A program made the translations under genes and the position numbers. Positions 23,790 through 26,646 of a stretch of DNA of 64,000 nt are shown here, piece after piece. The notes beneath the pieces are model-generated. The model was not told where the DNA came from. It searched no databases and worked only from the letters and a program-made list of their open reading frames with translations. Origin of the DNA: Aliarcobacter trophiarum LMG 25534 (GTDB taxonomy: Bacteria; Campylobacterota; Campylobacteria; Campylobacterales; Arcobacteraceae); assembly GCF_003355515.1 (NCBI RefSeq), contig NZ_CP031367.1:992001-1056000 (forward strand), written 5' to 3'. The first letter of the stretch is position 1. The number at the start of each line of letters is the position of its first letter.

Positions 23790-24734
23790 TTAGCTATTTG
23801 TGGCTATATAAAGATACATTTCTTCTAAGTTTAGTTTTTTATCTAATTTTATACTTAAATCCATAATATAAATATTATTTAAATCAAACTTCTCTAGCTT
23901 TACAAAATCTTTTTGTGTAGTAACTATTGCAAAATCTCTATATTTTTCTAAAATAGTATCTATTTCAAACTTTGTAAAAGTATGGTGGTCTTCAAAAAAA
24001 ATAGTCTCTATATTTTTTGGTAAAAACTCTAAGAGCCTTTTTGGCTTTGAGATTGCAGTTAAAAGAAGTATATTTTGTGGAAGTTCTACCTTCTTTTCAT
24101 CTTTTTTTATCTCTACAACTCTTTTAAAATCAAGCCCCTCTTTTAAAACTATATTTGCTTTATTATAAAAACTTTTTGGCTCTCTATATGCTCCACTTGG
24201 AATACAAAAATTATTTGTTGGTTCATCCTTTGGTTTTAGCAAAATATCAAATTTTTTTATATTGTATTTTGAAAATCCATCATCCAAAAAAACAACTTTA
24301 CAGCCTAAATCTTTAGCTTTATAGATAGCTTTTACTCTATCTTCACTAACTATTACAGTTGCATTTTTTAAAGATTTAGCTAAAAGCATAGCCTCATCAC
24401 CACTTATATTTATATCTTCTTTTATAACACCTTTTAAGCTAACTATAAAAAGTCCCTTCGAAGCTCTTCCATATCCTCTTAAAACTATGCAAACATCATC
24501 ATAGTTTTTTGCTAACAAAATAGTAATTGGGGTTTTTCCACTTCCTCCAATTGTTAGATTTCCAATAGATATTATAGGAATACCAAAATCTATTTTTGAA
24601 GAAGTAGCTCTTTTTATAAGAACAACAAGTATATATATAAAACTAAAGGGTAAAAGTAAAAAAGAGACTATTCTTTGAAAAGGATTTGGAAAAAATAGAT
24701 AATCTTCAATCCATAAAATAACTCTTTGCTTCAA
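23790..24734 (-). CDS. lpxK: Tetraacyldisaccharide 4'-kinase LpxK
   Basis: About 314 residues with the start placed at TTG 24734, two bases after the upstream stop and preceded by a GGA site. This gives MKQRVILWIEDYLFFPNPFQ, typical of the family. N-terminal membrane-associated segment, then Walker A GNLTIGGSGKTP, the VIVSEDR strand and VFLDDGFSKYNI. LpxK phosphorylates the lipid A disaccharide at the 4' position at the inner membrane. It follows nadE and the DegT-like gene. Confidence 0.93.
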   Translation of the reverse strand: MKQRVILWIEDYLFFPNPFQRIVSFLLLPFSFIYILVVLIKRATSSKIDFGIPIISIGNLTIGGSGKTPITILLAKNYDDVCIVLRGYGRASKGLFIVSLKGVIKEDINISGDEAMLLAKSLKNATVIVSEDRVKAIYKAKDLGCKVVFLDDGFSKYNIKKFDILLKPKDEPTNNFCIPSGAYREPKSFYNKANIVLKEGLDFKRVVEIKKDEKKVELPQNILLLTAISKPKRLLEFLPKNIETIFFEDHHTFTKFEIDTILEKYRDFAIVTTQKDFVKLEKFDLNNIYIMDLSIKLDKKLNLEEMYLYIATNS

Positions 24735-24736
24735 TA

Positions 24737-25876
24737 TTAAATCCAATCACTTGCAATTTGAACAACTTGATCGCAAACATAATTTACCTCTTCATTTGTA
24801 AGCCCAGCATAAATAGGAAGTGATAAAATTTGTTGATAGTTATTTAGAGCATTTGGAAATGCTGTTATTTTTATAGAGTATTTATTCTTATAGTATGTTA
24901 AAAGATGAAGTGGAATATAATTTAAAGCAGTTGAAACTCCTCTCTCTTTTAAAGCTCTAGCAAAAGCATCTCTATTTCTTTGAATTTTTATAATATATTG
25001 TGTATAAATATGCTCATTATTATATGGTAAAATAGTTATATGTTTTATATTTTTTAATCTATCTTCATATAGTTTTGCTATCTCTTGTCTTCTTTTTATA
25101 AAACTATCTGTTTTTTTAAGTTGGGCTATTGCATAAGCAGCATCTAGCTCAGAAATATCAAATTTATGTCCTATATCATCAACATCATAAACATAATCTA
25201 AGTTTCCATAACTATCATAAGCAGTTGTAATTGCATGATTTCTTAAAAGCTTTGCTCTTGAAGCTAACTCTTCATTATTTGTAACTAAAACTCCTGAACG
25301 ACTAATAGCATATCTAGATGGAGATGGATTTGTTGAAAATATTGTCATATCAGCAGTCAAATTTCCAACTTTCTCTCCTTTATATCTACTTCCTAAAGCT
25401 GCTCTACAATCTTCAATTATTAAGATATTATGTTTTTTTGCTATTTCATAAATCTTATCTAAGTTTGGAGCTAGGCCTCCAATAAAAGTGATAATTGCAG
25501 CTCTTAATTTTTTTGATTTATTAGCAATTATTGTCTCTTCAAACTTTTCAATATCTAAATTCATATTTTCTAAATTTATATCAACAAAAATAGGCTCTGC
25601 ATCAAAGTGTCTTACAGTTTCAGGGAGATTTACAAAAGAGTTTACAGACATTAAAATCTTATCTCCTCTTTTTAACTTCATAGAACTAAGAGCCAAATGA
25701 ATAGCTGCTGTTGATGTAGCAGTGGCTATAGCATATTTTGCACCAATGTAGTCGCAAATTCTCTCTTCAAACTCTAATACCTTTGATAAATCATCTTTTG
25801 ACTCTAAAACAGATTTTAATTGATTTATCTCTTCGCTATCTAAAGTTGCTTTATATATTGCTATCTTTTTACTCAT
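24737..25876 (-). CDS. DegT/DnrJ/EryC1/StrS-family protein lacking the PLP lysine
   Basis: 379 residues, start placed at ATG 25876 with GGAG six bases upstream. The fold-type I aminotransferase layout is clear: TATSTAAIHLAL (about 52-63), IIEDCRAALGSRYKG with the PLP-contacting D156, and a C-terminal QIASDWI end. Where relatives have the Schiff-base lysine (pattern FSFHPxKxxTxGEGG) this protein has FSTNPSPSRYAISRSG (residues 180-195), with no lysine. Either it is not a transaminase or it uses unusual chemistry, as the His-containing dehydratase ColD does. It may act on a nucleotide sugar, but the lpxK-nadE context gives no direct clue. Confidence 0.85.
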   Translation of the reverse strand: MSKKIAIYKATLDSEEINQLKSVLESKDDLSKVLEFEERICDYIGAKYAIATATSTAAIHLALSSMKLKRGDKILMSVNSFVNLPETVRHFDAEPIFVDINLENMNLDIEKFEETIIANKSKKLRAAIITFIGGLAPNLDKIYEIAKKHNILIIEDCRAALGSRYKGEKVGNLTADMTIFSTNPSPSRYAISRSGVLVTNNEELASRAKLLRNHAITTAYDSYGNLDYVYDVDDIGHKFDISELDAAYAIAQLKKTDSFIKRRQEIAKLYEDRLKNIKHITILPYNNEHIYTQYIIKIQRNRDAFARALKERGVSTALNYIPLHLLTYYKNKYSIKITAFPNALNNYQQILSLPIYAGLTNEEVNYVCDQVVQIASDWI

Positions 25877-25893
25877 CTTAAACTCCATATTTT

Positions 25894-26646
25894 CTATATT
25901 TTGGCAATTATTGGTAATCTTCTTTTAAACTCATTTAGTTTTACTCTTTTTGAAATTTTATCTATAAAAGAGGCTTCAAAACCATGTTTTAATAACTCGT
26001 CTTTGCTCTTATTTTCATCTATCATATCTTTTAATAAAGCATCAATTTGACTATAACTATATCCCAAATCATCCTCATCGCTTTGACCTTCATAAAAATC
26101 TGCACTAGGTTTTTTTTCTATAATATTTTTTGTAACTTCTAAATACTTAGCAAAATCAAATAAGTCACTCTTATAAATATCTCCAATTGGATTTAAAGCA
26201 CAAGCTAAATCTCCAAAAATAGTCCCATATCCTAAAAGCAGTTCACTCTTGTTTGAGGTTCCAATTACTAAAGAGCTTTCTCTTGCACTAATGTCATATA
26301 AAACTGACATTCTAAGCCTTGCACTAAAATTCCCAATTCGTAAATTACTACCTTGCATATTTCCCAAATAAGCACTAAGCATAGGTTCTATACTAACTAT
26401 CTCATATTTTATATCAAATTTCTCACAAAGCTCTACTGCATCATCAATAGATGATTTTGAAGAAAATTGTGATGGCATTAAAACACAATTTAAATTATCA
26501 CCAAAGGACTCTTTACATAAAACTGCAACAACTGCTGAATCAAGCCCACCAGAAAGTCCCAAAGTAGCTCTTTTTAATCCAGTTTTTAAAAGTTCATCTT
26601 TTAGAAACTTTATTAATTCTTGCTTAATATTTTTATAGTCATTCAT
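25894..26646 (-). CDS. nadE: Ammonia-dependent NAD synthetase
   Basis: 250 residues, the size of the NH3-dependent enzyme without the glutaminase domain. PP-loop SGGLDS at residues 32-37, GTSNKSELLLGYGTIFGDLACALNPIGDIYKS with the deamido-NAD site, and EKKPSADFYEGQSDEDDLGYSY near the C-terminus. It amidates deamido-NAD with ATP and ammonia. ATG start; part of the minus-strand run leading into the DegT-like gene and lpxK. Confidence 0.95.
   Translation of the reverse strand: MNDYKNIKQELIKFLKDELLKTGLKRATLGLSGGLDSAVVAVLCKESFGDNLNCVLMPSQFSSKSSIDDAVELCEKFDIKYEIVSIEPMLSAYLGNMQGSNLRIGNFSARLRMSVLYDISARESSLVIGTSNKSELLLGYGTIFGDLACALNPIGDIYKSDLFDFAKYLEVTKNIIEKKPSADFYEGQSDEDDLGYSYSQIDALLKDMIDENKSKDELLKHGFEASFIDKISKRVKLNEFKRRLPIIAKI

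Follow-up and report, generated by a model that had tools for sequence, protein, structure and literature searches.

A DegT-fold protein without the Schiff-base lysine, encoded beside lpxK across Campylobacterota

The window that we analysed is a stretch of 64,000 nucleotides from Aliarcobacter trophiarum LMG 25534. On its minus strand, at 24737..25876, lies a gene for a DegT/StrS-fold protein that lacks the Schiff-base lysine, which we call DegT*. As a sequence-only reading of this DNA had noted, the gene sits between nadE and lpxK, all on the minus strand. nadE (NAD synthase; 25894..26646) is upstream. lpxK (tetraacyldisaccharide 4'-kinase; 23790..24746; NF001892 at 414 bits, and PF02606) is downstream and overlaps the end of the DegT* gene by 10 nt. 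The longest open reading frame for DegT* runs from 24737 to 25888 and encodes 383 amino acids from an in-frame ATG at 25888, which is 5 nt from the nadE stop codon. The ATG at 25876, which gives 379 amino acids, seems likelier to be the true start, because GGAG lies ahead of it and because homologues begin with MSKK there. (Residue numbers follow the 383-residue frame and the structural model; subtracting 4 gives the earlier numbering, so that D160 is the former Asp156.)

The earlier reading had described a fold-type I aminotransferase layout, and this is borne out. DegT* matches PF01041 (DegT/DnrJ/EryC1/StrS) at 272 bits, where the gathering cut-off is 19.8. An AlphaFold2 model (pLDDT 87.1, pTM 0.87) has the fold of a fold-type I sugar aminotransferase, and its closest structure in the PDB is PseC, which is UDP-4-amino-4,6-dideoxy-N-acetyl-beta-L-altrosamine transaminase (2fn6/2fni/2fnu). 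The match to 2fn6 has Z = 43.5 and an rmsd of 2.3 A over 359 residues at 25% identity, but ArnB and other proteins are within 1 Z unit, so these are tied. PseC is also the best NCBIfam profile (TIGR03588), at 268.5 bits, which is below the equivalog cut-off of 423.5. The best PDB sequence match to the family profile is ArnB (1mdo/4oca), at 228 bits, and the two have similar GxKYxL and YYxxxF segments. (We had considered the lysine of GxKYD as a novelty of the DegT* family and rejected it, because ArnB has GYKYN.) DegT* scores 189.9 bits against the ArnB profile NF008658, well short of the equivalog cut-off of 631. ArnB serves lipid A, through modification with L-Ara4N.

The segment that carries the Schiff-base lysine in transaminases reads FSTNPSPSRYAISRSG in DegT* (residues 184-199; 25292..25339, minus strand). 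It occupies the place of the FSxHPxK..GEGG segment of relatives in a sequence alignment, and it has no lysine, which confirms what the earlier reading had reported. In the alignment to PseC (FSFHPVK..GEGG), the lysine column corresponds to P190 or S191, depending on where a one-residue insertion is placed. The lysine is also absent from orthologues across Campylobacterota, at 43-92% identity, which is far more than chance would give.

A protein search over 298 genomes of the class found a strong orthologue (E <= 1e-90) in about 170 of these Campylobacterota genomes, along with a few divergent members (33-44% identity) that are also beside lpxK. When we scanned 84,980 species genomes with the family's pattern, we found 490 relatives, and the best 80 of these 490 were, to judge by their record titles, nearly all from Campylobacterota. 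We then built a tree from 79 DegT* proteins (71 core and 8 divergent members) and 17 canonical enzymes, for 96 rows in all, with the columns of the lysine motif left out. The DegT* proteins form a single clade (SH-aLRT 100) on a long stem (1.15), adjoining PseC/ArnB-like enzymes. The best-scoring relative outside this clade is a DegT protein from genome G046 (L203:1416-2552, plus strand; PseC profile at 367 bits, below cut-off). Its lysine and GEGG are intact, yet its KRGDE and TYFDAIP motifs are close to those of the lysine-less family. It may be close to the ancestral form that was still catalytic.

All 17 canonical rows have lysine in the slot, and 71 of the 79 DegT* rows, including the A. 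trophiarum protein, do not. Among the 71 core rows the slot holds L in 16, S in 13, M in 12, K in 8, G in 7, R in 6, T in 3, and other residues. With an entropy of 3.04 bits, this column is at the 95th percentile of variability. Homologues with the usual lysine, which the earlier reading had counted against its claim, turned up only as seven rows of one nested subclade (which also has R, G, or N in the slot) and one isolated row; the rest of the family has none. The proteins with the lysine lack the other catalytic residues, and parsimony indicates that their lysines are secondary. Because these rows are nested in the tree, we rejected the idea that an ancestral lysine survived in some lineages. 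ColD and E1, which are PMP-dependent 3-dehydratases, also have the DegT fold without the Schiff-base lysine, but they carry a histidine in the slot. Histidine was not found there in any of the 79 DegT* rows, so DegT* is not ColD-like, and we rejected a ColD-like replacement as well.

We also examined the rest of the former active site, using the pocket contacts described for Spr1654, PseC, and ArnB (PMC5936713). The aspartate that contacts N1 of PLP corresponds to Asp160 (25409..25411, minus strand), as the earlier reading had proposed under the name Asp156. It is kept in 71/71 core members and in 5 of the 8 divergent ones. The phosphate-contacting Thr60 is kept in 62 of the 71 core rows and F85 or Y85 is present in 65. 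The ring-stacking aromatic is mostly kept in the core rows, and so is the cis His-Tyr pair in the family. Other contacts have gone. Where sugar aminotransferases have a histidine or glutamine that contacts O3' (PMC5936713), DegT* has Ala163 (25400..25402, minus strand), in a highly variable column. The glutamate of GEGG is lost in the family and its column is highly variable; the glycine is changed in 31 of the 71 core rows, and the A. trophiarum protein has R197-S198 where the phosphate-side Glu/Gly is expected. The phosphate-contacting serine is changed in 22 of the 71 core rows. In Spr1654, the nucleotide-binding loop binds uracil via Gly28*/Ile30* (PMC5936713). At the site of this LTxGPK loop, DegT* has residues 30-36 (SKDDLSK; 25781..25801, minus strand), which are shortened and have no Gly-Pro, so there is no TxGP loop. 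Overall, DegT* shares with PseC the domain layout and the N1 aspartate, but it lacks PseC's Schiff-base lysine, O3' histidine, GEGG, and TxGP loop. Similarly, ArnB's Lys188, its catalytic neighbours, and its nucleotide loop are missing.

Unlike PseC, DegT* has new invariant residues on its predicted back surface. K73, R74, R93, F95, and D96 are identical in all 71 core and all 8 divergent rows, but are matched by only 5, 2, 0, 1, and 1 of the 17 canonical rows, respectively. K73 and R74 belong to K73 R74 G75 D76 K77 (25658..25672, minus strand), which is just ahead of beta strand 77-81. The others belong to R93 H94 F95 D96 A97 E98 (25595..25612, minus strand), just ahead of strand 98-102. K126 and K127 (25508..25513, minus strand), just ahead of strand 128-134, are near-invariant in core members. 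In the AlphaFold2 model, the invariant residues, E98, and K126-K127 all lie immediately ahead of these three strands or at their beginning. The three correspond to strands b, c, and d of fold-type I proteins, which adjoin one another; the cofactor is located at their opposite ends. From the modelled secondary structure and this textbook strand order, we infer that the invariant residues should come together as one patch on the back face of the large domain, away from the former active site. Most of these newly fixed residues are charged, and the set precedes strands of the central sheet. Three divergent members (L096, L215, and L229) lack the N1 aspartate, yet all five invariant residues are kept in them. 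(In L096 and L229, which are lysine-less, the aspartate site reads VEG and AES, and the KRGDK and RxFD motifs are still there.)

DegT* is under strong purifying selection: compared to its closest relatives, dN/dS is about 0.07 (0.041/0.634). The reading frames are intact and there is no sign of relaxed selection. For lpxK, dN/dS was higher, at 0.26 (0.117/0.444), from one comparison only.

The association with lpxK is strict. Among 176 loci with DegT*, lpxK directly follows on the same strand in all 171 that could be determined; in the other 5, lpxK is absent from the available stretch, and most of those are short contigs. The other neighbours of the pair (nadE, argB, thrC, and a DUF455 gene) vary between lineages, and in some lineages nadE is replaced by the DUF455 gene or by others. 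The DUF455 gene (for example, L069:9606-10436, minus strand) is found close to DegT*-lpxK or immediately upstream of the pair, in many cases at the place that nadE has in other lineages. A gene of this type occurs likewise at L059, L068, L078, L083, L084, L087, L088, L093, and L094; the assignment is from a Pfam test for L069, and the other genes cluster with that one by BLAST. One draft genome (G056, with 8% contamination) has two DegT*-lpxK copies (L071 and L072), and the second copy may be from another organism.

In several of the lineages that lack DegT*, lpxK lies immediately next to nadE or the DUF455 gene. In two of them, the genes are ordered as in C. jejuni and H. pylori. Since there are lineages with lpxK and without DegT*, LpxK does not depend on DegT* everywhere. 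When we compared LpxK between genomes with and without DegT*, we found no coupled change beyond one column out of 55, which differed in 9/16.

What does DegT* do? The earlier reading had called it a non-transaminase, and the absence of the lysine, the O3' His/Gln, the Glu/Gly of GEGG, and the TxGP loop makes it very likely that this is correct. DegT* is probably non-catalytic altogether. Its catalytic residues have been lost while a new surface has become fixed, selection is strong, and the link to lpxK is strict; this combination fits a pseudoenzyme whose binding partner acts in lipid A synthesis. The suggestion of a binding or regulatory protein, also made in the earlier reading, stands as the best one. 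Under this explanation, an ancestor of the Campylobacterota would already have had, next to lpxK, the gene for a PseC/ArnB-like sugar-nucleotide aminotransferase. This protein would then have been stripped of the Schiff-base lysine, of its nucleotide-sugar loop, and of most cofactor contacts, and would have been retained for another task. DegT* would now work by binding a partner through the back-surface patch. The partner would be part of lipid A synthesis; the first candidate is LpxK, or else the membrane-bound substrate of LpxK, and DegT* may then control the place or the rate of 4'-phosphate addition. Overall, we lean slightly towards a phylum-wide pseudo-aminotransferase that uses the patch on its back surface to act in lipid A synthesis, with LpxK as a possible target. 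A role in lipid A synthesis is, on balance, somewhat favoured, with the caveat that gene neighbourhood alone is no proof of function. LpxK as the direct partner is just the simplest guess, and a doubtful one, as the covariation test gave no support to it.

There are several other explanations to consider. If the protein had a purely regulatory or sensor role that is unrelated to lipid A, then its linkage to lpxK would be an old operon that was never broken. Translational coupling can hold the genes of an operon together, which would suit the overlap with lpxK, and the negative covariation result also agrees with this. But the other neighbours vary while lpxK is constant, and we consider such a role unlikely. 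DegT* might instead be a lysine-independent enzyme that still binds PMP, through Asp160 and Thr60, and that converts a sugar or a precursor of lipid A with the help of PMP or by substrate-assisted chemistry, much as ColD and E1 work without the lysine. Lysine-less PMP chemistry has precedent in the superfamily, with His188 in ColD and His220 in E1. Also, the retention of Asp160 and Thr60 in core members counts against our preferred explanation, since one would expect it of a protein that still bound PLP or PMP, and F85/Y85 and the cis His-Tyr pair point the same way. However, the slot has neither histidine nor any other constant residue, and the O3' and GEGG residues, often the phosphate serine, and the nucleotide loop are gone. 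Furthermore, some divergent members have lost the N1 aspartate itself while the back surface persists. With these losses, the earlier reading's proposal that DegT* may bind PLP or PMP and carry out a new chemistry is not supported. The invariant aspartate of the core members keeps cofactor binding weakly alive, but a lysine-independent enzyme seems rather unlikely. A more specific version, in which the fold holds PMP via Asp160 and Thr60 and, with neither lysine nor histidine, acts on a lipid A precursor passed to or from LpxK, is improbable.

Another alternative is a non-catalytic subunit that needs a catalytic paralogue of the DegT family as its partner, in the manner of LCB1 and LCB2 in serine palmitoyltransferase. 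(LCB1/SPTLC1-type subunits are lysine-less, have the PLP fold of type I, and are kept by selection; LCB1 needs its catalytic paralogue.) Active sites in the DegT family are formed at the dimer interface (PMC5936713), and most of the genomes encode several canonical paralogues. But in three draft genomes that are 99-100% complete (G236, G271, and G294), DegT* is the only full DegT-family protein (other matches are below 45 bits). This disfavours an obligate heterodimer, which we view as very unlikely. An ordinary sugar aminotransferase with its catalytic lysine moved to the next position would suit the core members with lysine there (25 of 71; lysine or arginine in 43 of 71). We rejected this relocation because the residue is not constant at that position; moreover, the whole loop is without any lysine in 33 of the 79 rows and has neither lysine nor arginine in 14. 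As for lysines elsewhere, the invariant K73 and K127 are found ahead of strands, on the side away from the pocket, and K336 is in a C-terminal helix, so a relocated lysine is highly improbable. Finally, only the missing lysine itself speaks for local degeneration, a pseudogene, or a sequencing error. Because the same loss is seen across the sampled lineages, it is not a local defect, and with the low dN/dS and intact frames, we give practically no credence to this idea.

Lysine-less DegT proteins are already known (ColD and E1). What is new is that DegT* has no replacement residue, is phylum-wide, and is tied to lpxK. Among titles and abstracts of open-access papers on DegT with lpxK, on lysine-less DegT proteins, and on DegT pseudoenzymes, we found none that describes this family. 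Because DegT* scores far above the cut-off for PF01041, profile-based annotation will tend to name it an aminotransferase, which for core members is very probably wrong. The phylum includes Arcobacter, Campylobacter, and Helicobacter. If the link to lipid A is true, then the entire phylum has an additional protein devoted to outer-membrane synthesis, which was lost in the lineages whose gene order resembles that of C. jejuni and H. pylori, so that studies of those two species would not have met it. If lysine-free PMP chemistry were true instead, DegT* would be a new mechanistic class in the superfamily and would point to an unrecognised step of lipid A synthesis in Campylobacterota. As a pseudoenzyme, DegT* would clearly illustrate how, in nature, an enzyme fold can become a binding protein while its former active site decays and another surface is fixed.
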